Assembly (NCBI GenBank): GCA_021163005.1
Contig: JAGGXP010000024.1
Span: 1 to 41,549, forward strand
DNA length: 41,549 nt
Direction of reading: 5' to 3'
DNA from: Candidatus Aenigmatarchaeota archaeon
GTDB taxonomy: Archaea; Aenigmatarchaeota; Aenigmatarchaeia; QMZP01; JAFGSV01
Shown here: in pieces, positions 10,529 to 41,549 of the stretch
Numbering within the stretch: position 1 is the first letter of the stretch
How the letters are laid out: each line of letters opens with the position of its first letter
Position numbers and translations under genes: made by a program
The notes under the pieces: generated by a model
The model's input: only the letters and a program-made list of their open reading frames with translations
Told to the model about the DNA's origin: nothing
Database searches by the model: none

Positions 10529-10537
10529 ACAAACACC

Positions 10538-13218: not shown

Positions 13219-13252
13219 AAAAACTCCACTGTGCCGTCTATCGGTTTTGGCA

Positions 13253-13678: not shown

Positions 13679-13709
13679 ATGAATATATTCTCAGAATGTG
13701 TTATAATGT

Positions 13710-14333: not shown

Positions 14334-14391
14334 AATTATATCTGTCCCTGACATCTATAAATACAATTGGAAGAATAAAGTAAAAAATAAT

Positions 14392-14814: not shown

Positions 14815-14837
14815 AGTTTACCTCCATTTTTGACTAA

Positions 14838-15254
14838 TCAGCAAAGCACCCTGGCAATCTGGGCCCTCGCCGTGCCGCCGACAATCCTGAATATGCATGA
14901 ATCACTACTTGTGCATGCACCCAAAGGCGATGTCCACTTGCCAAGTTTTCCGGCTTCTATGGTGTTATCAACAAGTGCCGTTCCGTCAGCTGCTGTCCAC
15001 GTCCCGCTTACCGGCTGACCGCTGCTCATATTGATTATTGATATATCAGAAGTGTCAATATCAAGCGTCCCGGTGTTGGCTATCAATATCACGGCTCTGT
15101 CGTCGTTCACGCAGAAATAATCCCTTACCTCAACGCTCTGCCCTGTCAGTCCGCTCATGTACGTGTTCAGGTATGTCCACGCAGCGCCTGCAAGAGCCAC
15201 TGTTATAAGCAGCAGCACTATTATCGCAATGATAGGCGTTATACCTTTCCTCAT
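14838..15254 (-). CDS. Archaeal type IV pilin, copy B (tandem paralogue)
   Basis: Same N-terminus as copy A; ends IVGGTARAQIARVLC. Confidence 0.85.
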   Translation of the reverse strand: MRKGITPIIAIIVLLLITVALAGAAWTYLNTYMSGLTGQSVEVRDYFCVNDDRAVILIANTGTLDIDTSDISIINMSSGQPVSGTWTAADGTALVDNTIEAGKLGKWTSPLGACTSSDSCIFRIVGGTARAQIARVLC

Positions 15255-15263
15255 AAACATCAC

Positions 15264-23477: not shown

Positions 23478-26400
23478 GAGCTCTGGTCGCTGTCTTCGAG
23501 TGCCGGAACATTGGTGCACACGTCATCGAATGCGAACAGCGTGTCTTTGCTGTCCCATTTCCTGAACCTGAAGTCCGCGTGTGCCCTCACATAGAAAGTC
23601 TTTGAGGGAACATACCTGCCTGTGTCATCCCTTAGTGTATCAAGAGAGGTCGCCGTGCAGTAGATTGCTCTGCCTTTATTCTCCTCGAGCTGCTCCCCTG
23701 TCCATACGAGTACCTTGTTTTGCTGGACATCTCCATGGCCGAGTGCCGGCGGAACACCCTTGGGCACCGGGGTGCATGTAAGCCTGTCTGCTATTTCCTT
23801 TGGCAGTTCCAGTGTCATGCTGCCTTCTTTGGGCTGCCCGTTCTCATCCTGCCATACCCACAATATATCAGAATTGGGACCTTCTTCTGATGTTGCATTC
23901 AGCCCGACATAGAAAGGCCTGCCCCCGCCTGCCACTATGGGCTGTTCGAAAGAGCCTATGGACAATTTTACCGGCGACGTGCTTATATGCGAGGGAACCT
24001 TCGTAGTCATGAAGGTGTTCTTGGCTGTCCGTTCCTTCCATTCCTGCTCACTTATAAGCTCCACAGGCATCCATGAATCCACGCTGTAGTCGTATTCCAC
24101 AGTGGCGTTGATGCTGATGTATTCGTTTCTGAGTGTGAGCCTTGACAGCTTTGATTGTAAATCGTTTATAGACCTGCAGTCATAGGCATTTATGCTGAAG
24201 AAGAGCGGGACAGCAGAGCTTGGTGCCATGCTCCTAAACTCTTCCACGAAGCCGGGATCATTGGAATCCACAAAGCCGGAATAGTACTGCGGCCTAAGCG
24301 GAAGCACAGGAGCGAGTTCATCAGGCAGCTCCAACGACACGATGACATTTTCAGCATTCACCGGCCCGACATTTTTCACAGTGAGTGTGGCCATAGCATC
24401 TGTGCCTGGATATATCGCAGGTATGACCACGTTTTCCAGCTCAACGCCGTATGCGCCAGTAAGTCCGGTGGGGTTCTCTTCATACGTCCCCTCCATTATG
24501 TTCTTCGCGTATCCGACGGGATTCGTGAGCAGCATGAAGGTGTTGCTGAATGTCCCCCCGAGAGCTGAGAATCCCTGCGTTATCGGCTCCATGAAGCTTG
24601 ACATAGTATTATGAACCGTCGGCCACCATGCACCGAAGAACCCCTGCCCGACTATCTGTTCGCCTGGTCCTGCGCTGAAGAATATGAATACCAGAAGGAG
24701 CATTATGACACCCGTGTGGGGCCGCGTGCTGGCAGGCGACACTAGCCCGCCTATGAGCGCCACGACCCAGAACGGGAAGAATATATTTCCGGCAATTGTG
24801 CCAAGGTCTATGTTAAGCCCTGAGCCGCCCATCACGGCGACAAGGCCCCATATCATCAGGCCAACGAAGATTATCTTGTCTATGTTTTCATAGGTAGCAG
24901 TCGCCCCGCTCAGTCCTCTTCCTATGGCCATGGCAAGGTTCTTTTTTTCTGTCGGCAGAGGGAACACGAAAAAGAACGCAAGGCAGAGCGACGCAAGTTC
25001 CCACGACTGGAAAATGCCTCGGAAAACAACGAATGCGAGTATGACGGCGACGACCGGCCTCAGCATGCCTTCCATGAACTTCTGGGGCTCCTGCGGGCTG
25101 TACTCTCCCGGAAGACTGAAATATGCCGCAAAGAAGAATATGAGCAGCATCAGGCCCCTGAAAGGAAGCTGAGTGCTGAAGAACCCCCATCCCATGAAAA
25201 TGAGAATACCGAGCTTAAGGATACTTTTCGTAAATGCTAATGCTGACGAGTATTTGTTCTGTTGATTGGCAAAAAGGCTTCCGCCTCCTAACAATTCAAA
25301 ATCAGAGTGCATTTCAATAGGTTTCGGCTCCGGTATGACATTTCTTACTGCCCAAAGAGTTGCAGCGACAAGAAACTGCCAGCCGAACGCAAAGCCGGCG
25401 ACAAGACCAATGAGCACTAGGACTGCATTGAATCCTATCTTGGAACTGTATTCCGAAATTCTCGTTACATAGCCTATTGATTTGCCGTGCAATGTATTGT
25501 AGGATTTTTCTGTGTATGCATCCTCTGAATGTTTTTCGGCAACTTTCTTCTTTATTGACTCAAAATTTTTGGCGTCAACCCCCATGCGTTCTGCGTCTTC
25601 CTTGCTGAATCCGTAACTGCTTTCAACAGTCTGCGCGGCATTCTGATATTTCTGCATATATTCCTTTCTTTTCAGTGGATTTGTACTGTCAAGTTTTCGA
25701 TCAATGAGACCGAGCGCCTGATAGTTTATATCGGTTGTACCAAACGAAAGAATGTTTTTCTTCATGCGTTCTATTTCCTGCTTGACCCCATTTTTTTCGT
25801 ATTTGTTCTTTGCAGCTGACAGTCTGTCGTTCTCCAGCTGTCCCAGTCTTTCAAGAAGCCTTTTTTTCCTGAGTTCAACCCATTGATTGTAATCAGCTTC
25901 ATTGAGATCTATGTACCATGGCTGTAGTGCATTATGCCCCCTGCAGTTAGGATTTGTGCACTCTATTCTGTGCACCTTGATGCCGTTTATATCAAAATGC
26001 TTAACCTCTAACGGGCTTTTACAGACAGGACACGATTCTGTAACCATATCCACGGAAGTGTGTGGAAGAATGGGAACAAGATGACCACGTGCGTCTATGA
26101 TAAAGGCGTTGCCGCAGCTGCTGCAGTGGTATGTATCTGTGTTGGGTACCTTTTCCAGAGGGAAGTTGCCTTTGTACAGTTTTGAGCATATGGGACACAC
26201 AAAGTCTTTGGGTTTGGGTGTGCTCCCTTTTATTGGCTTTTTTTCAGGGTCAGGGGCCTGCTTTTCTGTCTTCTTTCGGAAAACACTTAATCTGTCCCTC
26301 CATCCTTTTCTCAGATTTCCAAGGGATTTTGTGTAAATGTTACCTTTCAGCGCCAGATGACTACCCGCAAGCGCCTCACCAAAGGAAAAACCGGAAGAGC

Positions 26401-26830
26401 CGAGAGATTCTTTTACATTTTCAAATCTGTCATCCTTCATTTTCTCAAAAAAACCAGGATTTTCCAGCATCATCTTCACAAGGGCGTATGTTTTCCGCTG
26501 CTTTTCACGTGCTTCCTTGTCACCCTGCTTTGCCTTTTTGCTCAGTTCATTCCATTCGTCCCTTGGAATTATGGCATCCCTTGCCGCCTGAACGGCCTTT
26601 ATGTCTCTGTGAACTGCCTCACTCCCGCCATCCTCATTATAATGAACCTTTCCCCCGCCAACTGCGTATTTTGGATATGTGTTTCTTGCCAGCTCTGCCC
26701 ATCGCGTCAAGTCTTCCAGTGTTGCCGGCCGCTGAATCACATTAAAATTGATGATACAATCCGGGTTGTTGCATTTATACAACCCCCCTGTTTCTTCAAG
26801 AGGTTTTCCGCAGTAAGGACAATTAACCAA
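23474..26830 (-). CDS. 1118-aa membrane protein: three N-terminal zinc ribbons, TM core, C-terminal CARDB-like ectodomain
   Basis: CPYCGKPL...CNNPDC; CPICSKLY...CSSCG; CPVCKSPL...CTNPNC; many hydrophobic helices; ATLTVKNVGPVNAENVIVSLELP ectodomain resembling the adjacent lipoproteins. Confidence 0.8.
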   Translation of the reverse strand: MVNCPYCGKPLEETGGLYKCNNPDCIINFNVIQRPATLEDLTRWAELARNTYPKYAVGGGKVHYNEDGGSEAVHRDIKAVQAARDAIIPRDEWNELSKKAKQGDKEAREKQRKTYALVKMMLENPGFFEKMKDDRFENVKESLGSSGFSFGEALAGSHLALKGNIYTKSLGNLRKGWRDRLSVFRKKTEKQAPDPEKKPIKGSTPKPKDFVCPICSKLYKGNFPLEKVPNTDTYHCSSCGNAFIIDARGHLVPILPHTSVDMVTESCPVCKSPLEVKHFDINGIKVHRIECTNPNCRGHNALQPWYIDLNEADYNQWVELRKKRLLERLGQLENDRLSAAKNKYEKNGVKQEIERMKKNILSFGTTDINYQALGLIDRKLDSTNPLKRKEYMQKYQNAAQTVESSYGFSKEDAERMGVDAKNFESIKKKVAEKHSEDAYTEKSYNTLHGKSIGYVTRISEYSSKIGFNAVLVLIGLVAGFAFGWQFLVAATLWAVRNVIPEPKPIEMHSDFELLGGGSLFANQQNKYSSALAFTKSILKLGILIFMGWGFFSTQLPFRGLMLLIFFFAAYFSLPGEYSPQEPQKFMEGMLRPVVAVILAFVVFRGIFQSWELASLCLAFFFVFPLPTEKKNLAMAIGRGLSGATATYENIDKIIFVGLMIWGLVAVMGGSGLNIDLGTIAGNIFFPFWVVALIGGLVSPASTRPHTGVIMLLLVFIFFSAGPGEQIVGQGFFGAWWPTVHNTMSSFMEPITQGFSALGGTFSNTFMLLTNPVGYAKNIMEGTYEENPTGLTGAYGVELENVVIPAIYPGTDAMATLTVKNVGPVNAENVIVSLELPDELAPVLPLRPQYYSGFVDSNDPGFVEEFRSMAPSSAVPLFFSINAYDCRSINDLQSKLSRLTLRNEYISINATVEYDYSVDSWMPVELISEQEWKERTAKNTFMTTKVPSHISTSPVKLSIGSFEQPIVAGGGRPFYVGLNATSEEGPNSDILWVWQDENGQPKEGSMTLELPKEIADRLTCTPVPKGVPPALGHGDVQQNKVLVWTGEQLEENKGRAIYCTATSLDTLRDDTGRYVPSKTFYVRAHADFRFRKWDSKDTLFAFDDVCTNVPALEDSDQSS

Positions 26831-26885
26831 AACACCACACCCAATAATAGATTAGGCAGCAAGGTATATATTTTTAAGAACCACG

Positions 26886-27923
26886 CTATGCAACTGACTC
26901 GGCCTTTTCTTTCATCTTTTTACTGATGCGCCTGAGTATCTTCAGCTCGTCTTCACGCGCCTTTTTTTCAATGCGCTTTTCTATTTCCCTTTCGTTGCCG
27001 GCAGCCTTTTGCTCTATCCGTTTGAGTATCTTCTCGTCCGCAGAATTAAACTGTCCCTCTTCGTGCATTTTCACAATTCTTCCTTCTCCTGCTTTATGTA
27101 ATTTGGCAAGATTGACATCTTTCATGCCAAAGATTAACTTAAAGGCAATCCGCCTAACTTTACGGTTTTTTATATAGAATTTGTCCAGCTGAACACGATA
27201 GTCTATCCCCAATTTCCTAAGAACTACACCATGCCACATGCCGTTTTTTATGGCTTCACGTATACTTGATTCTGCCATAAGAGAATCTGAAGCGGAAGTC
27301 AAGCCGGATTCACTATATTCAGGCCCCTTTGCCACAGTCACATCAGGCAGAGGCAGGCCGTGTTGTAATATGTATTTATTTACAGCCATAAGGTGATTGC
27401 CTGTCATATAATCTTCCTCCAGCGCTTTTGCGTAATCCCCAAAAAAATCCAACATTCTCTTCAGCAGTTCTTTCCCAGACCATTTAGATTTTGGTATCCT
27501 TATACTCTCGAAACGGGACTGCTCTTCAGGTATCAAATCACTGCCACTTCTTATTTTATTTGCGAGCTTCGTGTCTATAACGGATGCCACATATGGGTCT
27601 CCGAGAAGGTCAGTAGGAATCATTCTCGTTCTTATGTGAAAATCCTGAATAATACCGTCTTTCAGAAGGGCAGTTATATGAAAATGTGCCTCAGGATGCT
27701 GTTTTTTAGATTCAAGGTCAATGATGCTAAAAACGAATTCATTTCTGCTTCTGACAATCACTAAAAATTCTATATACCTTCCGTTATCAACCTCAATCCA
27801 TTTTCTCTGCGCAGGAATGCCAGATTTTATGTCTTCCCATTCTTTTCGCGTTATGTCATTCAGCAAATCCTTTAAAGTGCGGAATATAACTTTCACCTTT
27901 TGAATGCCTTTTAAAATGTGCAA
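26886..27923 (-). CDS. Hypothetical protein with charged repetitive C-terminus
   Basis: Continuous 345-aa ORF in the same operon orientation; C-terminal KILKRIEQKA...IEKRIEKKA...KILRRISKKM. No family recognised. Confidence 0.65.
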   Translation of the reverse strand: MHILKGIQKVKVIFRTLKDLLNDITRKEWEDIKSGIPAQRKWIEVDNGRYIEFLVIVRSRNEFVFSIIDLESKKQHPEAHFHITALLKDGIIQDFHIRTRMIPTDLLGDPYVASVIDTKLANKIRSGSDLIPEEQSRFESIRIPKSKWSGKELLKRMLDFFGDYAKALEEDYMTGNHLMAVNKYILQHGLPLPDVTVAKGPEYSESGLTSASDSLMAESSIREAIKNGMWHGVVLRKLGIDYRVQLDKFYIKNRKVRRIAFKLIFGMKDVNLAKLHKAGEGRIVKMHEEGQFNSADEKILKRIEQKAAGNEREIEKRIEKKAREDELKILRRISKKMKEKAESVA

Positions 27924-27926
27924 GAA

Positions 27927-29048
27927 TCACGACATCTCAATACTAGCCTCTGTGACCTCAAAAGCGCCTTTGCTGCCTATCTCAATCCAGTTGCTTCCGG
28001 GCTCGAAGTAATCCGTATTCAGCGTTATCTGGTTCCATCCTGCCTTGGCATTCGCACTGCCTGCGTCCCTGTCGTTGATGCGGATGTTTATGATTCCGGG
28101 CTTGTCAATGTTGTCTATGTAAAGCTTCAGGACAGCGCCCCTGGCTTTCACTGCTGAAAGCTGGGAATCATCGAGGTCAACCCTCTCCCTGAGCGCCTTC
28201 TGCGCCATTGAGACATGTGTGTTGAGTACGACATCATCAAGCCTGAACGAGCCGTTGTATGCCTTGAATACAAGCCTGTTGTTTCCCGGGACTATTTCCG
28301 CTTCCTTGAGGTCGGTGTCCTTGAATGCCAGCACGCCGTCCCTTTCAGGAATGTCCCTGAATATCTCCTCTCCGTTGACCTCTATGCCGAGCTTGCCTCT
28401 CCTTGACGCCGTGTACCATGTAAGCTCGAATGTGTCGAGTGTCTCCAGCTCGTCCTGCGAAACCACGAAGTCGAGGAACTTTGCCGGTCCGTATTTGGCA
28501 ACGAGCCTGAAGTCCTTCAGCTTGTATACAGTCGCCGCCCAGAACATCAGACCCGGACCGTATGTTTTCACTTCCAGTGTATTCTGCTTCTTTATCTTTG
28601 ACACCGGTATCTCCACTGTGTGTTCCCCGTCGTACGCCTTTTCGCTGTATATCTCCGCGCCGTTCCACAATATGACGAGGTTGTTCAGCTTGTTTGACTC
28701 GGCAACAGTGAATGTTATTTCCCCGCCTTTCAGCCAGTCGACAACGAAATCGGGCACGGTTATGTCGAATGTCTCGCTCTCGCCTCCGAAAAGCCCTGCT
28801 GTTATCTCCATTGCAGGCGCCTTTTTCAGCTCGTAGTCTGTGGGCACGCCGACGCTGAACGACCCGAAGTCCTGCGAGCGGGACACATAATTCTGCGTGA
28901 AGCCCACGCTGCCTGCGGACGTGAAGCTGTGGATGAGCCTTTCGCTCTCCGGGACGCCCTCGGGATAGTAGGGGAAGTAAACAGAAGCCAGCATCAGGAC
29001 GCCGAGAATGACGAACACGGCCACCAGCGCAACAAGGAAGTCATCCAT
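27927..29048 (-). CDS. Membrane-anchored beta-rich surface protein
   Basis: N-terminal TM (FLVALVAVFVILGVLMLASVYF), then repeated beta-rich segments with I(L/E)VNGEEIF, LVILWNGAEIY, INIRINDRDAG motifs. Confidence 0.65.
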   Translation of the reverse strand: MDDFLVALVAVFVILGVLMLASVYFPYYPEGVPESERLIHSFTSAGSVGFTQNYVSRSQDFGSFSVGVPTDYELKKAPAMEITAGLFGGESETFDITVPDFVVDWLKGGEITFTVAESNKLNNLVILWNGAEIYSEKAYDGEHTVEIPVSKIKKQNTLEVKTYGPGLMFWAATVYKLKDFRLVAKYGPAKFLDFVVSQDELETLDTFELTWYTASRRGKLGIEVNGEEIFRDIPERDGVLAFKDTDLKEAEIVPGNNRLVFKAYNGSFRLDDVVLNTHVSMAQKALRERVDLDDSQLSAVKARGAVLKLYIDNIDKPGIINIRINDRDAGSANAKAGWNQITLNTDYFEPGSNWIEIGSKGAFEVTEASIEMS

Positions 29049-29098
29049 ATTAAATATTAGTCAGGCAAAGGTATAAAAATGGCGCTTCGGTGGTTTTT

Positions 29099-30094
29099 AT
29101 GAAGATTGTCAAAAAGGACCTTAAGCACGGCACAATTGCACTGAAGCTGCAGAATGCGGACGATTTGTGGCATCTGCAGCATATCCTGCATAAAGGAAGC
29201 CTTCTCAAGACGAGGACCATGAGAAAGGTGGCTGTCAGGTCAGGCGGGGAGTTCAGGATGAGCGAGAAGAAGCCCATGGTCCTGACAATAGAGGTCGAGA
29301 AGACATCATTTGATGACACCACCGGCACCCTTAAGGTATCCGGAAAGATAGCCGAAGGGCCTGCCGAAACCAGGCTGAGCTCATACCACACCATGCGCAT
29401 AGAGCCGGGCGCTGTTGTCACTGTGAGAAAGCCGCACTGGGCTTCTTCAGACATGAAGCGCATAAGGGACTCAGAGACCCGCCAGCCGAAGGTGCTCGTG
29501 TGCGTCATGGACAGGGACGAGGCCGACGTCGCGCTCGTCAGCGGCTCCGGAATAACTGCAATAGGCAGGATCGAGTCGCACGACCCCGAGAACAAGGAAC
29601 CCTACAGGAAGGAGCTTCTGGATTTCCTCAGGGAGCAGACAGGATACGATGCGCTCGTGGTCGCCGGCCCGGGTTTCGAGGCAGCCAACTTTGCCAAATT
29701 CGCGCGGGAAAACAGCAAACTTGCCCCAGTCGTCGAGTCATGCTCCAATACAGGTGTAACAGGCATAAACGAAGTCATGAAAAAGTCCGGTGAACGGGTC
29801 ATCAGGGACAGCCGCATAGGGCAGGAAAGCGAGCTCGTCGAAAGGCTCATGGCAGGCATAAAGTCGGACGGCCTGGTGACTTACGGACCGTCGCATGTAA
29901 GGAAGGCCGTTGAAGCAGGCGCTGCCGAAACGCTCCTCGTTTCGAGGGAAAAGACAAGCGAATTCGAGGATTTGATAGGCGCTGCCGAAAAGATGGGAAG
30001 CAGGATAGTCTTCATATCCGCTGACCACACGCCCGGAGAGCAGTTCCTGCATCTTGGGGGCATAGCTGCCTTCCTGAGGTTCCGCGCAGAATAA
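29099..30094 (+). CDS. pelA: Pelota (Dom34 homologue), mRNA surveillance/ribosome rescue
   Basis: MKIVKKDLKHGTIALKLQNADDLWHLQHIL...; central LVCVMDRDEADVALVSGSGI; C-terminal eRF1-like domain 3. Confidence 0.92.
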   Translation: MKIVKKDLKHGTIALKLQNADDLWHLQHILHKGSLLKTRTMRKVAVRSGGEFRMSEKKPMVLTIEVEKTSFDDTTGTLKVSGKIAEGPAETRLSSYHTMRIEPGAVVTVRKPHWASSDMKRIRDSETRQPKVLVCVMDRDEADVALVSGSGITAIGRIESHDPENKEPYRKELLDFLREQTGYDALVVAGPGFEAANFAKFARENSKLAPVVESCSNTGVTGINEVMKKSGERVIRDSRIGQESELVERLMAGIKSDGLVTYGPSHVRKAVEAGAAETLLVSREKTSEFEDLIGAAEKMGSRIVFISADHTPGEQFLHLGGIAAFLRFRAE

Positions 30095-30095
30095 G

Positions 30096-31445
30096 TCACT
30101 TTACGCCGAGGTCTTCCCACGTGGGACCCTGCTCTGATGATGTCTGCTGGTATTTCCTGTAGAATATGAACCCGCCTATGGCGATTGCGGCCACTATGAC
30201 TGCCGCGATGATGTAAACCCACAGACCCGGACCGGGCGGAGGCTCGTCGAAAACAATATCGCTGTTGTCTATGACATTTCCAGTAAGGCTTTCAAGTTCT
30301 TCCCAGTCCTCAAGCGATGCGCCCCCGTTTTCGTTGTATTTCTTTATGAAATCATCCTGCCCGAGCTTGTCGGCATCGGCAACCATTTCATCGACAGTGA
30401 GCCATGACTTCGCGGACCTCTTGGTCCCGTCCTTTCCCTGCGCCACGGCCGTTATCTTGTAGCTGGCCTTTGCGTTTTCAGACGGCCTGACGTTGAACGG
30501 TATGCTTTTGCTCTGCCCTTTCTCTATGAACACAGTGTACGGCGAGAAGTCTGTGTCGAGCCCCTCGTCTGCAGTGACCATCACAGTCACTTCCTGTCCT
30601 TCTCCGTAGTTCTGCACCCTTGCAACGAACTGCGTGCTCTGCTGTCCTGTGATGCTCTTGGTTTTCGGCGAGAGCCATATGAAGAAGCCTGCCTTAGGAG
30701 TCGCCGATGCGTCTGCGACATGCAGTATTCCGTCCACTGTTCTGGAACAGTCATCTATGCTGCATCCTTCTGCATTCACAGACACGCTGAACGGATAGTC
30801 GCCTGCAGCAGACGGGGCATTCACTTCCACCTGAATCTCCTGCTGTCCGCCGCCGAGCTGGGCATAGGTCTCGCTCGCCCTCATCTGGACATCGCCGGAA
30901 GCCTTTGCTATGCTGACAGTCATATCAGTGCTTGAATCAAGAATAAGATTAAAGACAGCTGATTCGCCGGGCCTTGCGTACATCTCCGGCTGGGTGAAAG
31001 AAGCGCTGAAAAGGTCTGTATGCCCGCCCATGACATCGCAGGGGCTTCCTGTTGCAGCGCCTTCGGTTATGTCCACGTCGCTGTACTGCGCCACGCAGAC
31101 GCCGTAATCATAGCTTATATTACCCCTCGGCGTGCTGACGGTTATGTGTATGTTGCCTTCATCACCAAGAGCCCTGCTGACTGCGCTGAAGCACACGGGA
31201 ACGGAAACGATGTTGTCAGGCCCGGCGACGAAGCTCGTGAAGTGGTTGTCAATCCACGGATTTCCTTCGGCTTCGCCCGGGTCGCTCGCCTGAAGCGTGT
31301 ATTCCCCTCCTCCGTCCTGCCCGAAGAGTATGCTCGTGCACACCTCCTTGGCGGGCTGTATGGAGTAGTAGGTTGCTGCCTGGGTGTCATGCACCAGCCC
31401 TAAAAATGCAAGCACCAGAAGCACTGTAATGGTAACATATTTCAT
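30096..31445 (-). CDS. Secreted/membrane-anchored beta-sandwich surface protein, paralogue A'
   Basis: Signal peptide, C-terminal TM (GLWVYIIAAVIVAAIAIGGFIFYRKY). Shares GEYTL...DPG...NPWIDNHFTSFVAGPDN...VPVCFS, SYDYGVCV, APSAAGDYPFSVSVN with 40175-41506. Confidence 0.8.
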   Translation of the reverse strand: MKYVTITVLLVLAFLGLVHDTQAATYYSIQPAKEVCTSILFGQDGGGEYTLQASDPGEAEGNPWIDNHFTSFVAGPDNIVSVPVCFSAVSRALGDEGNIHITVSTPRGNISYDYGVCVAQYSDVDITEGAATGSPCDVMGGHTDLFSASFTQPEMYARPGESAVFNLILDSSTDMTVSIAKASGDVQMRASETYAQLGGGQQEIQVEVNAPSAAGDYPFSVSVNAEGCSIDDCSRTVDGILHVADASATPKAGFFIWLSPKTKSITGQQSTQFVARVQNYGEGQEVTVMVTADEGLDTDFSPYTVFIEKGQSKSIPFNVRPSENAKASYKITAVAQGKDGTKRSAKSWLTVDEMVADADKLGQDDFIKKYNENGGASLEDWEELESLTGNVIDNSDIVFDEPPPGPGLWVYIIAAVIVAAIAIGGFIFYRKYQQTSSEQGPTWEDLGVK

Positions 31446-31448
31446 GAA

Positions 31449-34400
31449 TTACGACACCCCTGAAAGATAATAATCATCGCAATCAGCTTTCGTTGTTATT
31501 GTGTCAATGGGTCCTATGTCAACGCCCTCTGGTATATCCTTTACGCAGATGTGCCCGTTGAGGTCATCCTGGTGACCGGGCACGTATTTGCACCCACTGT
31601 CAACGCAGGCATAACAATCATTGTCGATGCTATTGCACTCTGTCTCCTGCTCTGATTGCTCCTCCTCAGTCGCCGTCTGATGCCCTATATTCACGGCTAC
31701 CTGCCCTCCTGTGTCAAACCTGTAGCGGGCTATGGGGTATGAATCGCCGCTGAGATATGAATTTACAGATATTGTACCGGTCACTCGGGCATTACTATCG
31801 CAGCCAGGGACATAGCAGGTACCCGGAAGCTGCTGCGGAATGTCGCCGTTGGTGCTGTCACATGTCAGCCCCCTGAGTGCCCTGTCAAAATAGCAGTTTA
31901 TGGAACCGTGGTTATTCCTTATTTTGAAGTCTCTTGAAATGGTGCTTCCTGGGCCTGCAGTTCCGTCATCTTTAATATAACGGTACTGATATGTTACCCT
32001 TATGTAGCCGTAACTCCTGCCGTAAGCCCCTGTGTAAAATCTGTTGTATGTGGTCCTCCCGGCAAAGTAATTCCGATAAAGATAGTGACTTTGCGGGTAA
32101 TGCGGGTCATAAACCCGGTACATCCCCATGTTGGGCATGCCGTATACGGGGAGCGTGTAATCTATCCTGAACTGGGGATTATTCGGCCCTATTATGCAAT
32201 CGTTGCTGTTCATATAATTGCTGTTGTCGCATTTTGGGTCGACCTTCAGAGCGGACGTCAGCCCACCTCCAGATGTCGTTTCCTGCATTTCCTGCTGTGC
32301 CATCCGCTGGTAATTGTACACCGAAAGGTCGTATGAGAGTCTGTCGATTGTCTGCGTCAACTGGGCCTGGCACTGCTGCATCTGCTTGTAGTAGCGCGTC
32401 GTCCTCATGCCGAGGTCATATGCATTCTGGCTGCTTGTCGTGCGCTGGGTCATCGCCAGCTGGGCGCTCGCCATGCATGCCTGGTAGCTCTGCATCCCGC
32501 TCTGCATGTTTATTAGAATCTGGAGCAGCCCGGCGACTGCCGCTATGGTGTCGCAGGTCTTTGCCATAGTTTGTGCGGCCTTGGGGTTTTTGATAGCCAG
32601 CGCGCATACCAGGGTCCCCCCGCCAACTGCTCCCCAGAAATACGGGTCGCATTTCATGACAGTCATCTCGCCGAGCATGAAAAGCCCTCCCGCTATTATG
32701 CCGCTCGTTTTTGACTGCTTCATGGAGAATCCCTTCATCTCATTGGACATCTGGGTGAACATGTTCATCGGGATGCCGCCGAATATGCCGCCTCCGGGCA
32801 TCATCATCGCGGGGTTGTAATTCCTCGGGTAGCGGGCGGCATAAGGCACACCAGCACCGGTGTCCCATATCTGCATGCCGGTCACAGGTGCCGCTGTAAC
32901 ACCGCCGCTCACAGACTCTTTATAAAATGGCACCAAATCACAACCATTAGCATCGATTTTGAATCTTCTGTATCTTTCATCAACACCCACATAATTGTTG
33001 TATTCATTCTGATTGTAATCAACACACGTACTTTGTTCAGCATCGAACATACAAATCTGAGGATGAGGTGAATGCGATACACATGACTCGCAGTCATTGT
33101 CCCATGAACTACAGGTAGTTCCAGCGCAATCATATTTGTCAGTAATACCAATTTCCCAAGAAGACTTCTCTACACAGTTCCCGTATACTGATTGCCAAGC
33201 ACATGTTTGACCATACTGATTAATAGCGCCGGCACAACTAGGGCATGATTCATATCCACTACAATCACACTTACTTGCATCGGTAATGAAATTATCTGAT
33301 TGGGACAACGACTTACAACTACCAACCCGCCCGTCCCATGCACACCCAGCATTTACACACTGAGGACATGACTTATAAGTACCACATAATGAACTCGGGC
33401 TTGCCGCAGGACTTCCGCCGCCGGAGGCGTCGGATACTATAGAATCACCTTTGACATTTGCAACCACTTTCATATTTTGCTGTTTATTGTCAGATGTTCC
33501 ACTTACCTTATTATCATCGTTTCTTCCACTGCTTGACTGTACCGGTTGAGTAGTTTGCTGTTTATTGTCAGATGTTCCACTTGGCTCATTTTTTGCCGTC
33601 TTCTGCGTAGTTGAGCCTTCTAACTGTTCCAAAATATCCATTTTGCTGGTGCCAGTATTTTCCAGTACAGTTCCCTTTGTTATTTCATCAAGCCTGTTTT
33701 TCCAAAATTCATTAATTTTAGACTTCTCGAATTCATAATCTTCCTTTGTGATGTCACCACTCTTAAGCTTTTTGTCCAGTTCTGCAAGTTGGCTGTCCCA
33801 TTCACTGTTGGCATGCATAAAACTGTTTTTCTGGTCTGTCGTCAGTCCTTTCGGCATTTCAGGAGAACCGTTGCTAACCTTGCCCGACATCAGGCTGCAG
33901 GCGACGCAGAGCCCCATTACACTCGCTATCAGGCACATCAGGGTGTTCGCTTTCTTCATGCTTTTCTGGACCTTCTTCAGCCCGCTTTCGTAATCAAGAA
34001 GCCCGTCGTTCTTCACGGCGGTTATGGTTGTGCCTATTCTCTGGCTGCTTGACGCAGTGACGCTCTTTGTTCCTCCCTGGGGTGTCACTGACTGAATGTT
34101 CAGTGTTATGTTGGTTATGGTTGTCTGAATTGTTTTTGACGACTCGCTAAGTGCTTCGACGACAAGCGAGTTGTCCATGTTCGGCATCAGCGACAGCGTC
34201 CAGCCGTCCGCTGTCTGCTCGGTGTTCATTATGTGGTATGTGTGCAGCTTGTCATTGTTAATGAAGCCCCCTCTCGGCGGGAGCGGCACCTCGCTCCACA
34301 CAAATGTCCCGTCTGTTGCCACAGCGCCTGCCGGCATGTGGTTGACCTTCACGTCGACCTTAACCGGCTCGTCAAGGGTGCAGCTGTAGTCCAGTATGAC

Positions 34401-37400
34401 CGGTCCCCACTTGTTCATGAAGAAGTTTTTAGTATAATCTTCCCCGCTGTCGAACACGTCCCCAAGGTTTCCGGGTGACAGTGTGCATTTTGTATTTATG
34501 TGGCCGGGACTAACCCTAAGGGTCACAAGTTCTGGGTTTATGCATCTCGTGTCACCAACCCCCTGTCCGGGGGCTGCGCATATCTTGCCGGAGTCCGTGC
34601 ACGGGCAGTCCTCGCAGCAGTTGTCGGATGTTTCACCGAGGTTGCTGTTGCACTCCCCGTTTCCGCACAATGGCAGGCCGCTTTTACCGACTGTCACAGA
34701 AAAATCATGACTTATTTCTGTTTTGTGCCTCCTTCCGCTGTAATCCATGTAATATATCTTGGCCTCAAGCCCGAAGTTTGCTGTCTCACCGTCCCCTATG
34801 GTGCACGCAGGGAAGTTTCTTATGGGCATTGTGCACTTGTAAGTGCCTGTCGGAGAGCCGTCAATGTCATCAACCTCCTGCTCGCACGTGAAGTACGGCG
34901 TGCTGAATGTCTGGCCATTGTAAGTCATGTACCACTTTATGAACTGGGTGTTGTGGGGAAGGTTTTGCATGGTGACATCAAATGTGAGCTCGCTTCCATC
35001 GTCGTTGCTTGATGTCGCCTGGCAGTTGAGCGCGTTAGATGTGACTGTCACCTTCATTCCGATAGTATTCTCGTCAACACATTCATTGCTCGCTGTGCAG
35101 ACATTGCCCTCGCCCGCGCATCCGCAGTCAGCGCAGCAGTTTTCGGTGTTCTCACCTATGTCGGCGTTGCAGGCGCCGTCTATGACGCACTGCCTGCCCC
35201 TTGCCGGGTCTATTGTGAATGACACGGTCTTTGTTATGTCCTTTGTCTGCCTGTTTCCTGCCTTGTCGAACCATGCTATGCTGGTTTCATAATCAACTTT
35301 GTAGTCCTTTGCCTCCCAGCAGAACGGGTTGAACTGCGAGACAGGCATCGAGCATTCCCATGAGTAGACGCTGTAGCTGGTTGAGTTGACGAGCGGGCTG
35401 CATGTTCCGTAGAGCTCCCCGCCGACGCGCCTGTCGTCTATGAAAACATCACCAAACTCGAGGCCGTTGGATTCCGGGGAGTACGGCATGTGGTTGGCCG
35501 TGGCCGTGAACTTTACCTGCTTCCTTCCAATGCTGTCAGCGGACTCTGCGCTGCAGTCAACTGTCTGCGGGTCTGTCTTCACAATAAGGTCCAGTTCATC
35601 CTTGCTGATGCAGCTTGCATCAACAGTGCATACCTCGCCGTCAGGGCAGCCCATGTCCTGGCAGCACGTTTGCTGGGTCTCTCCGAGTTCCGGGTTTGGT
35701 TCGCCATTGCCGCACATGGGAAGGCCGCTCACGTATTCAAGGTTGAAGTCATCCGAGATGTTCTTGCCTTCATATATCGGGTAATATGCAGAAAGCCCGC
35801 CTCCAAGCACGTTGAGCACGAGGTCCATGTTCGCCGGAGGCTCATCAGGGCAGGCGGGGAAAAGCGAAACAGGCATTGTGCATTCCACATCTCCTGTATG
35901 GTGGCCTGTGTCGTCAGTGAGAGCCGTGCACGAGAATCCTGGTATGTTCTGCGCTGTGTACGTCTTTCCGTCATAAAGGAGCTTCCAGTTTATCAGCCTG
36001 AACGGCTCAATCGCGCTTTCGGGAACGTTCTGCACGTGGGATCTGAATGTGAAGTCGCCCTTCTGCGTGTTTGACGGCGAGCAGTCTATGTTGTTCTTTG
36101 ACGGAAGGTCCTCCGGATTGATTGTAAGAGAAATCTGGGACTCATCAATACATCCCGATGCAGTGCATATGCCGTTCGCCTCGCATCCGCAGTCCCAGCA
36201 GCAGTAATCCGGCGTCTCGCCCATTCCGGCATCGCATGACCCGTCCTTGTTGCAGGACCTCAGCCTGGCCTTGGTAACCTCGACATCGAGGTCTGTCGTC
36301 AGTTCAGCGTACTTTACTTCGTTGGCATCCTTTGCCGTTCTGTCATCAAAATATGATATAACCACACTGAAGTTGAGGTTCTTCGTGCCTGTGTCAAAGC
36401 ATCCCTGAAAGCTGTTCGGACCCGAAATCGGGAACCTGCACAGGTAGGCGTCACTCTGCTGCTGGCAGTCAGAGAGCGTGTACCTCCCGTTCTCGAACAT
36501 GTATGTCACGCTCTTGAATTCATCAACAAAAGCGGGTCCCTTGACAAGAGTGAACTTTACTTCAACATCAGAACCGGTCTGCGTGCAGTCAAGTGTGGAT
36601 GGAAGCATGACGGCTGTTATGCCCATGCCGCTTTCCTTGCAGGAACCTCTGACAGAGCAATAACCTGTGTTGCATCCCGTGTCCTGGCAGCACGTTTCCT
36701 GCGTCTCTATGGGACTTTCTATGTGGCCGTTGCCGCACAGGTGGCATACATTGTCCGTGCATACCTGAAGCTGTCCGGTGTATGTGTCAGCAGGGCAGTC
36801 GTTGCAGTCAGTGCAGCAGTTGGTGTAGTCCTCTCCGGGCTCGCATTCATTGTTTCCGCAGGTCGGTGCAGTGCAGACCCCGGCCGCTACATTGCCAGTC
36901 TCGCAATATTCCCCAGACGGGCACCCGCAGTCAAGGCAGCAGTTTTCAGGCGTCTCGCCCGGCTCGCATCCATTCTCGCCGCATTCGGCTTTTGTGCACC
37001 TCTGCATGGTCTGGTCATAATAATATCCTGTGCCGTAGGCGTCAGCACATGTCTTTCCCGGCGTGTTCCAGCAGTCGCCGGGACAGGTGCTCGAATCCTC
37101 CGCGGCCTCGCATATCTGGTTGCCGCACTGCGGCGTGACGCATTGTCCGTACGGCACGTTCATGTCGGTGTTGCAGTACAAACCTTCGGGGCATCCGGCA
37201 TCTATGCAGCAGTTTGTGCTGTTCTCCACAGCGTCAGGCGTCCCGTCGCCGCACACATGGCACTGGCCGGAAGGATAAGCCTCAGTTGCATCGCAAGTCT
37301 GTCCATCTGACGGGCACCCGCAGTCAAGGCAGCAGTTTTCAGAATTTTCACCCACCTCGCAGCCGTTCTCGCCGCAGACAGGAAGCTGGTTGGCGAAGAA

Positions 37401-38213
37401 CGTTATGGGGTTTGCCGTACTGCCCTTTGCCAGGGCTATGAGATAATCCTTTACAGTTGTCTTTACCATATTCCCCGGCGGCTTGTACCTTCCGAATGAA
37501 AGCGAATCTATTTCTGTGGCATCGGAAACCAGTTCGTATATCTGGCTTACCGGACCTTCCACAGGGCCGAAAACAGTCTTTTCAACCCAGTTTGCAGGTA
37601 TCATGTCGTGCGTTTCTATGAAATCCTTTATCCATGCAGGCTCTATGCCGGGCTTGGCGTATATGTCAAGATTGGAGACATCGTGGCTGGTGTGCTTGAA
37701 ATCCTTTATGCCTCTCCTCTCGACCTCATCCCAAAATCCCACCCAGCTGTCAATGCCGTCGTGGCTGAATTTTACAAGCGTAAGGAAATGGGCTGTCGTG
37801 TCCCTTGAAACATCAGACCAGTAGAATGTGCCCTTGTCGCCGGAAAGGAAGCTGTCGGCTTCAACAGGCTCGTAGTCCACGCAGTCCAGAGGCGAGCTGT
37901 CTTTGCACCTGAAAAGGTATATCTTGCTCACCGGGTAAAGTGGATCACGGCCTATAACCTCAATCTTGACCTGCACATTGTTCCAGCGCGAGTCAGCCGG
38001 ATCATGCACTATATCGAATGTTTTTGATACTTTGTCGCTGTAATCAAGGGAAGCACTGACCTTTTCACCTGTCGGCGTGGCTGTGTTGCCGCTGGCTATC
38101 TGCCTGTATATGGAAAGTTCCACAGCCGATGCGGTACTTATGCTCAGTATGAGATAGACGCTGAACACAGTGGCAGCCTTGAGAGCAAATTCTGTCAGCC
38201 TGTCCATGAGCAA
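31449..38213 (-). CDS. Giant 2254-aa modular Cys-rich surface protein with internal hydrophobic segments and PSI-like domains
   Basis: Signal peptide; about ten CGNxxCExGExxxNCCxDCGCP-type modules; internal TM-like segments; CxxYxSCPxCxxxxCAW PSI-like repeats; tail CNSIDNDCYACVDSGCKY. Confidence 0.85.
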   Translation of the reverse strand: MLMDRLTEFALKAATVFSVYLILSISTASAVELSIYRQIASGNTATPTGEKVSASLDYSDKVSKTFDIVHDPADSRWNNVQVKIEVIGRDPLYPVSKIYLFRCKDSSPLDCVDYEPVEADSFLSGDKGTFYWSDVSRDTTAHFLTLVKFSHDGIDSWVGFWDEVERRGIKDFKHTSHDVSNLDIYAKPGIEPAWIKDFIETHDMIPANWVEKTVFGPVEGPVSQIYELVSDATEIDSLSFGRYKPPGNMVKTTVKDYLIALAKGSTANPITFFANQLPVCGENGCEVGENSENCCLDCGCPSDGQTCDATEAYPSGQCHVCGDGTPDAVENSTNCCIDAGCPEGLYCNTDMNVPYGQCVTPQCGNQICEAAEDSSTCPGDCWNTPGKTCADAYGTGYYYDQTMQRCTKAECGENGCEPGETPENCCLDCGCPSGEYCETGNVAAGVCTAPTCGNNECEPGEDYTNCCTDCNDCPADTYTGQLQVCTDNVCHLCGNGHIESPIETQETCCQDTGCNTGYCSVRGSCKESGMGITAVMLPSTLDCTQTGSDVEVKFTLVKGPAFVDEFKSVTYMFENGRYTLSDCQQQSDAYLCRFPISGPNSFQGCFDTGTKNLNFSVVISYFDDRTAKDANEVKYAELTTDLDVEVTKARLRSCNKDGSCDAGMGETPDYCCWDCGCEANGICTASGCIDESQISLTINPEDLPSKNNIDCSPSNTQKGDFTFRSHVQNVPESAIEPFRLINWKLLYDGKTYTAQNIPGFSCTALTDDTGHHTGDVECTMPVSLFPACPDEPPANMDLVLNVLGGGLSAYYPIYEGKNISDDFNLEYVSGLPMCGNGEPNPELGETQQTCCQDMGCPDGEVCTVDASCISKDELDLIVKTDPQTVDCSAESADSIGRKQVKFTATANHMPYSPESNGLEFGDVFIDDRRVGGELYGTCSPLVNSTSYSVYSWECSMPVSQFNPFCWEAKDYKVDYETSIAWFDKAGNRQTKDITKTVSFTIDPARGRQCVIDGACNADIGENTENCCADCGCAGEGNVCTASNECVDENTIGMKVTVTSNALNCQATSSNDDGSELTFDVTMQNLPHNTQFIKWYMTYNGQTFSTPYFTCEQEVDDIDGSPTGTYKCTMPIRNFPACTIGDGETANFGLEAKIYYMDYSGRRHKTEISHDFSVTVGKSGLPLCGNGECNSNLGETSDNCCEDCPCTDSGKICAAPGQGVGDTRCINPELVTLRVSPGHINTKCTLSPGNLGDVFDSGEDYTKNFFMNKWGPVILDYSCTLDEPVKVDVKVNHMPAGAVATDGTFVWSEVPLPPRGGFINNDKLHTYHIMNTEQTADGWTLSLMPNMDNSLVVEALSESSKTIQTTITNITLNIQSVTPQGGTKSVTASSSQRIGTTITAVKNDGLLDYESGLKKVQKSMKKANTLMCLIASVMGLCVACSLMSGKVSNGSPEMPKGLTTDQKNSFMHANSEWDSQLAELDKKLKSGDITKEDYEFEKSKINEFWKNRLDEITKGTVLENTGTSKMDILEQLEGSTTQKTAKNEPSGTSDNKQQTTQPVQSSSGRNDDNKVSGTSDNKQQNMKVVANVKGDSIVSDASGGGSPAASPSSLCGTYKSCPQCVNAGCAWDGRVGSCKSLSQSDNFITDASKCDCSGYESCPSCAGAINQYGQTCAWQSVYGNCVEKSSWEIGITDKYDCAGTTCSSWDNDCESCVSHSPHPQICMFDAEQSTCVDYNQNEYNNYVGVDERYRRFKIDANGCDLVPFYKESVSGGVTAAPVTGMQIWDTGAGVPYAARYPRNYNPAMMMPGGGIFGGIPMNMFTQMSNEMKGFSMKQSKTSGIIAGGLFMLGEMTVMKCDPYFWGAVGGGTLVCALAIKNPKAAQTMAKTCDTIAAVAGLLQILINMQSGMQSYQACMASAQLAMTQRTTSSQNAYDLGMRTTRYYKQMQQCQAQLTQTIDRLSYDLSVYNYQRMAQQEMQETTSGGGLTSALKVDPKCDNSNYMNSNDCIIGPNNPQFRIDYTLPVYGMPNMGMYRVYDPHYPQSHYLYRNYFAGRTTYNRFYTGAYGRSYGYIRVTYQYRYIKDDGTAGPGSTISRDFKIRNNHGSINCYFDRALRGLTCDSTNGDIPQQLPGTCYVPGCDSNARVTGTISVNSYLSGDSYPIARYRFDTGGQVAVNIGHQTATEEEQSEQETECNSIDNDCYACVDSGCKYVPGHQDDLNGHICVKDIPEGVDIGPIDTITTKADCDDYYLSGVS
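33476..33582 (-). repeat. Pair of 29-bp perfect direct repeats, 78-bp period, in frame within the giant ORF
   Basis: TTTGCTGTTTATTGTCAGATGTTCCACTT at 33476-33504 and 33554-33582; encodes SGTSDNKQQ twice. Confidence 0.9.
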
Positions 38214-40132
38214 CCTCCGGTATATGATATTTGACCGTTAGAAATAAGAGATAAACCGTTGCAGTTGTCATAAAGGCTCTTTAGGTTTTCGACATCAGCA
38301 TCTTCAATTCCGCTCAATGATGGTATGTAGACGTAAACATCCTCAGTGTCCGGTGCAGGCGTAAAGATGCCGTTCATAATTCCCAGCACCTCTTCCTCTG
38401 TGTTGAGGCCGGCAGTCACGTTGTATTCATACATCGGAAGCCTGTATATAAACTTACTCGGCTCTGTTGCGGAAAACTGCGTAATGCCGCTTGTGTCAAA
38501 CGGATCGAAGTCTGTTCTCTCCATGTACATCGAGACCTTTTCTCCACTTACGGGAACAGGCGCCTCTGCTGTATACCCGCCAGCAGTCTTTGTCACAGGA
38601 ACCTTGTAGAAGTGGAACGTGTAGCTCTTGCTTTTCGGTATGCTGAATGTGTGGCCGGCAAGTTCTGAGTAGGAAACGGCCTCAGTATAAACATTGTCAT
38701 CGACCTCAACCGTCAGCGAGCCGAGTGCAGTCTTCGGCACCTTTCCTGAGACAAACCCGTCGTTGGCCGTGTTCCCAAGCGGGCAGCCGTCGAATGACAC
38801 CTTGGCACCCTTTACTATGCTCCCGTCAGTATATTTGACCATTATGCTGGCATCTTCCGTTGCCCCTGTCCTGCACCTGTCGTTGTACTGAAGAGACTCA
38901 AGCGTCTGTGGTGCAGGCGGAATCGCGGAAGAGGCAGTACATCCATGACCGACCTGGTTGTTTTCCATAAATACCATTACGGCGAAGTTGAACGGCATCT
39001 TCATGTCATCGTCCCATATGCTCACGACCACGGGATACTTGACGTTGTATGATGCCTGGTACTGGGCTATGGTAAACCCGTTAAGGTACTGGTTTACCGA
39101 ACCGGATGCACGTTTTATCTCAAGCGTTTCGGGTGCCGAGAACTCGGTCCTGTCAAGCCCGTCGTCATCGCCGTAGTAGAACATGACATTGAGGTCATTG
39201 TACGGGTCACTCGCGACATTTTCAGGCGCGTTTTCGCCGCACGCCCTCTGTCCCTCGGGAAGCGATGAATAGTCTATTATAGTCGGTATGAAGCCGAATT
39301 CCATTGAGGTGCCGTCCCAGCCGCTGTAGCGCATGTTGACAAGCCTGCCTTCAGTGTCCGTGGGTATCTGGTAGCCAACTTTCGTGGTTGCGACGGAGTT
39401 TCTTGCGTGCAGTTCCATGCAGTCCCTCAACTGTGTCCATGAGAATGTGTACTGCCTATGGGCGTTGCCCATGCCGAAGGGTATCCAGCAGGGACGCGAG
39501 GATTCCGAAGACTGTGAAAGGGAGCTTATGAGGTTGTTGTCAAGCATCCTGCAGTCCGCCTCCATTATGGCGAAATTCTCGGCGAAGTCTGCTATCCTTC
39601 CCAGCCCGGTGGCGAAATCAATCCTGTACGGCTGCGGAACCTGCGAGCCCTCGAATGTCGTGGGGATGCTCGCCGCCACAACGACCTTGTTGTCATAGAG
39701 TTTTGTCGTCACCTGCATGGCATCCTTGTTGAATGTGGCTGTCCTGCCTCCTATGCTCTGTGTGTCCGGAAGGTTTTCCTCAAGGTATTTCTTCACGCCG
39801 TCGGCAAGGTTCGCTTTTATGTCAGGAATGGCGAACGTGTCGCACATCTGCCAGAACGCTACATTACCGAAGGTGTCAGTGCTGGTGTATCCAAGATACA
39901 TCGAAGAGCCGTCAAGATAGCCGCCGTTCTTGTAAATCTCTGAAACTGTTTCGGAAACGCCCTGCCTCATGACGTCCTTCACGAATGACGCCACGGACTG
40001 CTGTTCCTGCGTCAGGGCGACATTCTCCACAGAAGGCGGGGAAAGAGACGAGTAGCTGTAAAGACCTATCGCCACAGCTATGACCAGCAACCCGAGAATC
40101 AATGCAATTTCTGCCTGAGCCTTCCTTGGCAT
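38195..40132 (-). CDS. Pilin-like N-terminus fused to a large ectodomain (about 645 aa)
   Basis: MPRKAQAEIALILGLLVIAVAIGLYSY: prepilin-like leader with Glu at +5-type position plus hydrophobic helix; long extracytoplasmic beta-rich body. Confidence 0.75.
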   Translation of the reverse strand: MPRKAQAEIALILGLLVIAVAIGLYSYSSLSPPSVENVALTQEQQSVASFVKDVMRQGVSETVSEIYKNGGYLDGSSMYLGYTSTDTFGNVAFWQMCDTFAIPDIKANLADGVKKYLEENLPDTQSIGGRTATFNKDAMQVTTKLYDNKVVVAASIPTTFEGSQVPQPYRIDFATGLGRIADFAENFAIMEADCRMLDNNLISSLSQSSESSRPCWIPFGMGNAHRQYTFSWTQLRDCMELHARNSVATTKVGYQIPTDTEGRLVNMRYSGWDGTSMEFGFIPTIIDYSSLPEGQRACGENAPENVASDPYNDLNVMFYYGDDDGLDRTEFSAPETLEIKRASGSVNQYLNGFTIAQYQASYNVKYPVVVSIWDDDMKMPFNFAVMVFMENNQVGHGCTASSAIPPAPQTLESLQYNDRCRTGATEDASIMVKYTDGSIVKGAKVSFDGCPLGNTANDGFVSGKVPKTALGSLTVEVDDNVYTEAVSYSELAGHTFSIPKSKSYTFHFYKVPVTKTAGGYTAEAPVPVSGEKVSMYMERTDFDPFDTSGITQFSATEPSKFIYRLPMYEYNVTAGLNTEEEVLGIMNGIFTPAPDTEDVYVYIPSLSGIEDADVENLKSLYDNCNGLSLISNGQISYTGGCSWTG

Positions 40133-40174
40133 GATAACCATTATATTATATTTTACATAGTTATCTCTTATAAA

Positions 40175-41506
40175 TCACATATAAGGCTGATATTCATCAC
40201 TGCCCACGTCTTGTGTTACCTTGCTTTTTTTGTAAATGTAAAAAGCACCGGCACCTGCGATAATTCCGGCAGCCGCAATTGCTATGAGCCATGTGGGGAG
40301 AGCAATGCCGCTTTCCGGCATGTCATTAAACTGCCCAGTGTTGTCGATTATCTTGCTGTTGATGTCCTGCCAGTCGTCAAGTGTGGCGTCGCTTTCGTAT
40401 TTCTCCCAAAAATCCGCGGCACTCTGATTTGACAGCGTGCCGTTCTCTGCTGCCCTGCCGGCATCGGACACTGCCTCGTCCACTGTGAGCATGGCTGTCT
40501 CGCTCTTGGACTTCCCGCTTTCATCCTGCACGGTTACCCTCAATGTGAACAGCCTTTTCGTTGTATCAGCAGGAATGACCACGACACCGATAACCCTTTT
40601 CGTGCCGCCTGCTATGGTTATGTCCATGCTGTCCATGTCGCTGTCCAGCCCGTCGCCCTTATCAAGCGCGACCGAGAACACACCAGTCTCTTCAAAGTTT
40701 TCTATTGTCAGGTAGTATGTAGCGGAGCGAATGCCGATTATGTTCCTGTTCTTTGGGGCAAGATTTATGTCAAACCCTGTCCTCTCCTCATTGACATGGA
40801 GAGTCCCTTCCACGCGCTTTGTGCATGAAGGGCTGTCGCAGCCGTTCACACTCCCTGTTATGGCAAACGGGTAGTCGCCCGGCTCTGAAGGTGCATCCAT
40901 ATCTATGTGCACCATTTCTTCCCCAGGCAGCCGGACTGTTGTCATTTCTATGTTCATTGACGGTCCGTTCTCCTTCTCAAGTGAAACGCTTATGTCCATG
41001 TCAGATGAAATTACCAGGTCAGTGGCTGCAGTGCCACCCGCCTTTGCATAAAGCTCCTTTTGGAGCATGTCCATTGTGAATATGTCCGTGTGCTGCTCGG
41101 TGGCTGCGCATGGATTGCTGCTGCTCATGATGATTTCGGCGTCTTCAAACTCGCTGACGCATATGCCGTAGTCGAAGCTCAGGTTCTGCTCCGGTGTTTC
41201 AAGTCTCAGCCTCAGGATGCCCTCATCCCCTTTCTTTCTGTTCTCCGTGCTGAAGCAGATCGGCACAGTGACGGGGTTGGCCGGGCCCGCTATGAAGCTC
41301 GCCCTGTGTATGTCTACCCACGGGTTGTCGGGATAGCCGGGGTCATCTATGTCAAGCGTGTATTCCCCCCTGCCGAGGTCGCCGAATGTTATGGTATCGC
41401 ATAATGTTTTGCCGGCGCCCAGCGCAATGTACACGTTCTGCTGGGCCGATGCAGCAGGCACAGTGGAAAGCGCCAGAAAAGCAAGCATCAGAATAAACCT
41501 TTTCAT
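40175..41506 (-). CDS. Secreted/membrane-anchored beta-sandwich surface protein, paralogue A
   Basis: Signal peptide, C-terminal TM (WLIAIAAAGIIAGAGAFYIYKK). GEYTLDIDDPGYPDNPWVDIHRASFIAGPANPVTVPICFS parallels 30096-31445. Confidence 0.8.
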   Translation of the reverse strand: MKRFILMLAFLALSTVPAASAQQNVYIALGAGKTLCDTITFGDLGRGEYTLDIDDPGYPDNPWVDIHRASFIAGPANPVTVPICFSTENRKKGDEGILRLRLETPEQNLSFDYGICVSEFEDAEIIMSSSNPCAATEQHTDIFTMDMLQKELYAKAGGTAATDLVISSDMDISVSLEKENGPSMNIEMTTVRLPGEEMVHIDMDAPSEPGDYPFAITGSVNGCDSPSCTKRVEGTLHVNEERTGFDINLAPKNRNIIGIRSATYYLTIENFEETGVFSVALDKGDGLDSDMDSMDITIAGGTKRVIGVVVIPADTTKRLFTLRVTVQDESGKSKSETAMLTVDEAVSDAGRAAENGTLSNQSAADFWEKYESDATLDDWQDINSKIIDNTGQFNDMPESGIALPTWLIAIAAAGIIAGAGAFYIYKKSKVTQDVGSDEYQPYM

Positions 41507-41549
41507 GTCATCAATCACCTATCGGCTTGTAGAGGTAGGGGCTCATGTC

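Follow-up and report, generated by a model that had tools for sequence, protein, structure and literature searches.

A tandemly duplicated surface gene set, probably exported and in part prepilin-like, in one order of Candidatus Aenigmatarchaeota

Introduction

Four large, close-packed genes at the edge of an archaeal contig raise the question of what kind of surface structure they encode, and whether they form a unit of their own. The organism is a Candidatus Aenigmatarchaeota archaeon, a member of DPANN. Contact with a host cell is expected of DPANN archaea, and how they recognize and hold a host is poorly understood. The window, that is, the whole stretch of DNA analyzed (41,549 bp), is a complete contig (C29) of a 945 kb genome assembly with a completeness of 91%, and the gene set is therefore truncated at position 41549.

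Results

Gene order and tandem duplication

An ORF check confirmed A', PIL, GIANT and A as real open reading frames on the minus strand of the window. These genes, their parts and the candidate assembly machine are as follows.

41519-41549, no strand: end of the contig, which cuts off the operon.
40175-41518, minus strand: A', 447 aa from a GTG start (an alternative ATG at 41506 is the end taken by the earlier reader); assigned, by its tree clade and the gene order at loci L035/L036 and L037/L038, as the last gene of an upstream module 2; PIL2 and GIANT2 of that module are absent from the contig.
38195-40141, minus strand: PIL1, 648 aa, with a class III leader, an N-terminal helix and a large ectodomain of helices and beta-sandwiches.
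40043-40123, minus strand: predicted prepilin cleavage site of PIL, KA/Q (residues 8/9), and N-terminal helix (residues 7-33), from the motif test and the AlphaFold helix.
38642-38869, minus strand: putative transthyretin/carboxypeptidase-regulatory-like beta domain of PIL (residues ~425-500), from the sequence pattern in alignment A1 and the strands of the model.
31449-38213, minus strand: GIANT1, 2254 aa, with a Sec signal, an N-terminal domain and Cys modules alternating with beta-rich regions.
37344-38132, minus strand: N-terminal domain of GIANT (residues ~28-290), the order-wide signature of the family, from alignments A5 and A7 and the profile search.
33888-33944, minus strand: predicted transmembrane segment of GIANT (residues 1424-1442), after the ectodomain, from a hydropathy scan.
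30096-31445, minus strand: A, 449 aa, which closes module 1, with a signal peptide, an Ig-like domain and a C-terminal transmembrane segment.
30159-30215, minus strand: C-terminal transmembrane segment of A (residues 411-429), followed by a short tail, from the sequence and the family alignment.
9584-15263, minus strand: candidate assembly machine, an archaeal type IV pilus locus with two T2SSF proteins, a T2SSE ATPase and pilins with KG/ITPII leaders.

The spacing is tight, with a gap of 33 bp between A' and PIL, an overlap of 19 bp between PIL and GIANT, and a gap of 3 bp between GIANT and A. Two claims of an earlier note on this DNA are borne out here: the four minus-strand genes are close-packed, and the outer two are paralogues (A and A' share 34% identity over 417 positions in BLASTP, E 1e-85). 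Its further claim, that these paralogues bracket a four-gene operon, does not agree with the relatives. The order along transcription in genome G001 is NreA, the five small genes S1-S5, PIL2, GIANT2, A', PIL1, GIANT1 and A, and G004 shows the same order. In relatives, S1-S5 are small membrane or pilin-like genes upstream of PIL2, and the arrangement is one of tandem PIL-GIANT-A triads that follow them. Compared with these genomes, the window is read as a complete module 1 (PIL1-GIANT1-A) together with the tail of module 2 (A'). Since A' belongs to the upstream copy, the apparent A-pilin-giant-A' symmetry is an edge effect. A bracketing role for A and A' was rejected, as A' ends another module.

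In the same genome, the S genes and the 5' part of PIL2 sit at the end of another contig (G000:C7:1-3400), and GIANT2 was not found in a search of the assembly's contigs. A gap of a few kb would lie between C29 and C7. In the PIL tree, one clade (100/99) holds the PIL1 copies of four genomes and a separate one (98/98) the PIL2 copies of five, the C7 fragment included. The A/A' tree splits likewise, into clade A (100/100) and clade A' (95/97). These parallel splits support an old duplication. Two tandem triads are also present in G006 and G007, which belong to two further families, and the triad copies pair between those two genomes in the tree. In G015, two nearby PIL-GIANT pairs occur without A (L047:1869-14017), and the same genome carries a separate PIL-GIANT-A module (L048).

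On its other side, A is met by a convergent gene (29090-30094, plus strand) for an eRF1/Pelota-type protein (eRF1_1, E 6e-28; eRF1_3, E 5e-19), and the operon thus ends against a housekeeping gene. From there to the pilus locus, positions 23474-29048 (minus strand) encode three more consecutive proteins of 1118, 345 and 373 aa that have no Pfam family.

Prepilin leaders and the pilus motor

PIL starts with MVIMPRKA and continues, after the cleavage point, with QAEIALILGLLVIAV, which is a class III (prepilin) leader. The prepilin motif was detected in 21 of the 29 PIL rows, in S1 (9/13), S4 (8/14) and S5 (11/14), and in only 3 of 355 control ORFs, in line with the pilin-like leader noticed previously on PIL. 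Several of the PIL, S1, S4 and S5 failures come from mis-set starts or from the lack of K/R before G/A. By a predicted prepilin site with a hydrophobic helix after it, these four proteins are classed as subunits of the type IV filament (pilin) superfamily. S2 and S3 show an N-terminal hydrophobic segment only, and the class III motif was found in 1 of 11 S2 rows and 0 of 15 S3 rows. A search for the bacterial minor pilin families (PilHIJK/GspHIJK) returned only sub-threshold matches to the N-terminal helix (Pilin_N, E 0.18; Class_IIIsignal, E 0.087) and does not place the proteins in them.

In the AlphaFold model of PIL (pLDDT 75), the helix of residues 7-33 leads into a head of some 600 residues made of helices and beta-sandwich domains, in which residues ~425-500 have a weak profile match to a SusC homologue (E 0.35). 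Foldseek searches of the PDB and viral libraries with this model gave generic beta-sandwich (Ig/FnIII) matches of low TM-score, and these were therefore not used to name a function. The S-layer protein SlaB of Sulfolobus is among them (E 1.4e-5, also with a low TM-score).

The pilus locus at 9-15 kb is recognized by its family matches (T2SSE, E 6e-30; T2SSF, E 1e-14 and 1e-10). Within it, two tandem pilin genes (14392-15263, minus strand) share a common start, KG followed after the cleavage point by ITPIIAIIVLLLITVALAG, and are 66% identical. The prepilin peptidase of this genome lies on a different contig, G000:C25 (27.6 bits; cut-off 26.5), and Peptidase A24 was found in 31 of the 35 genomes of the order, this one included. 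Peptidase, extension ATPase and platform, by which a type IV filament system is recognized, are thus all in the genome, but nearly every genome of the phylum has ATPase and peptidase, so that this test is not specific. The pilus locus itself, with its motor, platform and major pilins, occurs in 145 of 146 genomes, and its presence alone therefore marks no specific partner of PIL-GIANT-A. Since the motor is universal and no motor gene lies inside the cluster, the link between the two is indirect. The earlier proposal that PIL is processed by the peptidase of the 9-15 kb system can be kept in part: the leader and the peptidase in the genome support prepilin-type processing, but the peptidase is encoded outside that locus.

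The exported proteins GIANT and A

The 2254-aa giant is Cys-rich, as had been described: its 130 Cys make up 5.8% of the residues, compared with a median of 0.97% in the ORFs of the window. Its Sec-type signal ends in a conserved SA in the family alignments (A5 and A7). The model of the N-terminal part was too poor for a structure search (pLDDT 54). The Cys modules are of the CGxG..E..CCxDxGC type and stand between beta-rich stretches, with nine CCxD sites in the window protein. In nearly all of the complete relatives that were scanned, the ectodomain is likewise followed by a hydrophobic segment similar to the predicted transmembrane one. Residues 1-1462 form a conserved core, with about 55% identity to G001. 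Beyond 1462 most of the protein is an extension particular to the lineage and bearing PSI-like Cys segments; within it, residues ~1835-2065 are a stretch common to G001 and, more weakly, G004. The length of 2254 aa is thus not a trait of the family, whose members measure 706-2913 aa and differ greatly in their C-terminal parts. A family scan up to E 1 detected no PilC/PilY1 domain in GIANT, which is not assigned to the PilY1/PilC proteins. Elsewhere in the genome, on a contig of 41914 bp (G000:C39, L034), a 4753-aa open frame contains one GIANT-like Cys module near 29599-29691 (45% over 31 residues), and may be a second, larger surface giant.

A and A' each carry a signal at the N-terminus and a hydrophobic stretch at the C-terminus. 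A carries a conserved N-terminal DPG/NPWxD domain and, at residues ~263-340, an Ig-like domain suggested by sub-threshold matches. The hydrophobic C-terminus is kept across the family alignment except in the masked L045 row. In genome G002 (CP070804.1), the A' homologue (L040:6428-8104, minus strand) runs into a partial AICARFT/IMPCHase domain (Pfam, E 1.6e-55) without a C-terminal transmembrane segment, which is a fusion, a deletion or an assembly artefact.

Distribution and conservation

Co-occurrence was counted in 146 genomes of the phylum with a completeness of at least 70%, of which 35 belong to the order and 111 do not. Profile A1 found PIL in 34 of the 35 and in 3 of the 111 (G119, G121 and G152). 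Within the order, profile searches also recovered S3 (33/35), the N-terminal domain of GIANT (32/35) and A (32/35, 28 strongly and four weakly). Among the 111 other genomes, GIANT was found in G152, and GIANT, S3 and A otherwise gave weak or partial matches only.

The genes are also kept together. A GIANT start lies no more than 1.2 kb downstream of PIL, on the same strand, at 47 of 63 PIL places; conversely, 47 of 52 GIANT starts have PIL just upstream on the same strand. In 16 genomes, S3 is at most 3 kb upstream of PIL. Where this is not so, the S genes form a group away from PIL with the order S1-(S2)-S3-S4-S5 kept, S2 not always being found. For A, 33 strong cases were counted: in 18 it comes after GIANT, and in the others it is apart, many of these being in family f4 or at contig breaks. 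The earlier note had proposed a dedicated surface gene set, and had made this depend on a gene order shared with relatives. The order is conserved, and the proposal stands. A scan of named genomes, made with two patterns characteristic of the family to which the window belongs, reached only close relatives: JAUXKD010000012.1, JAFGSV010000015.1, CP070804.1 and JAFGFG010000002.1 (Candidatus Aenigmatarchaeota MAGs), and JANQNF010000012.1.

Between the window's genome and G001, the identities of A (58%), PIL1 (55%), GIANT1 (55%) and A' (46%) are below those of NreA (73%) and the pilus ATPase (77%). This faster divergence would fit surface exposure. A divergent PIL subfamily was also observed: the proteins of G119 (L078:3824-5716, minus strand), which is outside the order, and of G033 (L085, G033:C42:201-2072), which is inside it, are 40% identical, and the gene in G119 adjoins one for 1275 aa. 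This suggests either transfer or a wider family. The outlying PIL of G119 may resemble pilin-like proteins of Woesearchaeota.

Discussion

The gene set, its order and co-occurrence, the prepilin leaders, the signal peptides and the duplication can be read from the genomes, and on them we build a model that we regard as having an even chance of being right: an adhesion or contact apparatus, related to type IV filaments, that is specific to one lineage, an order of Aenigmatarchaeota. S1, S4, S5 and the very large PIL would be cut by the prepilin peptidase of the genome. The type IV pilus motor (ATPase and TadC-type platform), presumably that of the 9-15 kb locus, would then assemble them into a minor-pilin complex. 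GIANT, exported by Sec, would be an adhesive ectodomain displayed or docked by PIL, and the Ig-domain protein A, through its C-terminal membrane anchor, may tether or guide the complex in the envelope. Tandem duplication of PIL-GIANT-A in the window's own family would have given two divergent heads, modules 1 and 2. We infer the physical assembly, the use of this motor and the adhesion, as well as contact with a host cell, which the lifestyle of DPANN archaea leads one to expect. Since GIANT and A have membrane anchors, they fit poorly with release at a filament tip, which calls for caution in placing the complex there. A more specific version is possible, with the balance against it. It takes the locus for a contact machine specific to DPANN and derived from a type IV filament, in which order-specific minor pilins and giant Cys-rich heads, the latter in two co-maintained paralogous versions, bind host archaea.

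Alternatively, the system may build or space the cell envelope and form no filament. GIANT would then be a membrane-anchored, S-layer-like or long-stalked wall protein, A a second anchored protein and PIL a membrane assembly platform. This accords with the transmembrane segments of GIANT and A, with a near-universal presence in the order, as for structural proteins, with the SlaB match of PIL, and with the S-layer-like proteins bearing a C-terminal transmembrane segment that are often found at archaeal pilus loci (PMC4858521). However, all archaea need an envelope, yet within the phylum the genes are limited to one order; a set of prepilins does not usually accompany S-layer proteins; and the variable length and C-terminal parts of GIANT are unlike a lattice protein. 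PIL, GIANT and A matched no curated S-layer family in Pfam or NCBIfam. We consider an envelope scaffold rather unlikely.

A device of the pseudopilus type is improbable; in it, much as in type II secretion, GIANT or other proteins would be released by a short piston built from S1-S5 and PIL. The count of subunits, five small pilin-like or membrane proteins and a single large one, is like that of the GspG-K set, and GIANT and A have Sec-type signals, but archaea with a single membrane need no export piston, no conserved cargo was found beyond GIANT and A, and GIANT appears anchored. A fusion-like function, which the earlier note had thought possible, would have these surface proteins cause cell-cell fusion or membrane merging, and is highly improbable: its sole point is that fusogens also combine large Cys-rich ectodomains with membrane anchors, and neither Pfam, scanned to E 1, nor the PDB yielded a match to fusexin/HAP2 or another fusogen family.

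An apparatus related to type IV filaments may be set beside several known systems. PIL, GIANT, A and A' reach no curated Pfam or NCBIfam cut-off and have no convincing sequence match in PHROGs or the PDB, so that, as the earlier note had said, no described system is recognized in them; a description of the gene set was likewise not found in the open-access literature. In bacteria, the minor pilins and PilY1 or PilC (fimU-pilVWXE-pilY1; PilHIJK-PilC) form a complex that primes and caps the filament (PMC7541494, PMC10191384). The likeness to type IVa minor pilins lies in several small prepilins beside a very large, exported, modular, adhesin-like protein. In contrast to these systems, no sequence homology was found, PIL is itself very large, the motor genes are elsewhere, GIANT has a transmembrane segment and Cys modules in place of a PilC/PilY1 domain, and A has no counterpart. 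The Kil (Tad) tips of Myxococcus, KilL-KilM-KilN, consist of large modular pilin-like proteins with extra domains, in four paralogous sets on one pilus (PMC12075869). PIL-GIANT-A resembles them in having such proteins in several paralogous sets, whereas Kil is bacterial, uses three pilins for each tip and lacks a giant Cys-rich partner, and homology was not seen. By analogy, the best reading is a logic like that of the FimU-PilVWXE-PilY1 or Kil tip complexes, which would operate here without detectable homology.

Among archaea, type IV pilus loci are known that encode large adhesin-like proteins and S-layer-like ones (Makarova et al. 2016, PMC4858521). These loci are similar in joining pilin-like proteins to large proteins with a signal peptide and to Cys-containing proteins with a C-terminal anchor; they differ in having their own ATPase and TadC, and the PIL-GIANT-A families match none of the models searched. 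The dark-matter islands of DPANN genomes hold diverse pilins (Makarova et al. 2019, PMC6393860, Fig. 2A), and, as far as the text and legend of that figure describe them, they likewise contain uncharacterized proteins read as divergent pilins. The kind of system is already known from archaeal pilus loci and DPANN pilin islands; the families and their combination appear to be new. PIL-GIANT-A is a concrete candidate gene set for the recognition and holding of hosts: nearly all genomes of the order have it, the rest of the phylum lacks it almost entirely, its surface proteins evolve fast, and its heads come as two paralogues. Named proteins are now at hand for localization, binding and structural work. 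The plan of minor pilins with a giant adhesin, known from bacterial pili, may thereby extend to archaea in an apparently independent form.
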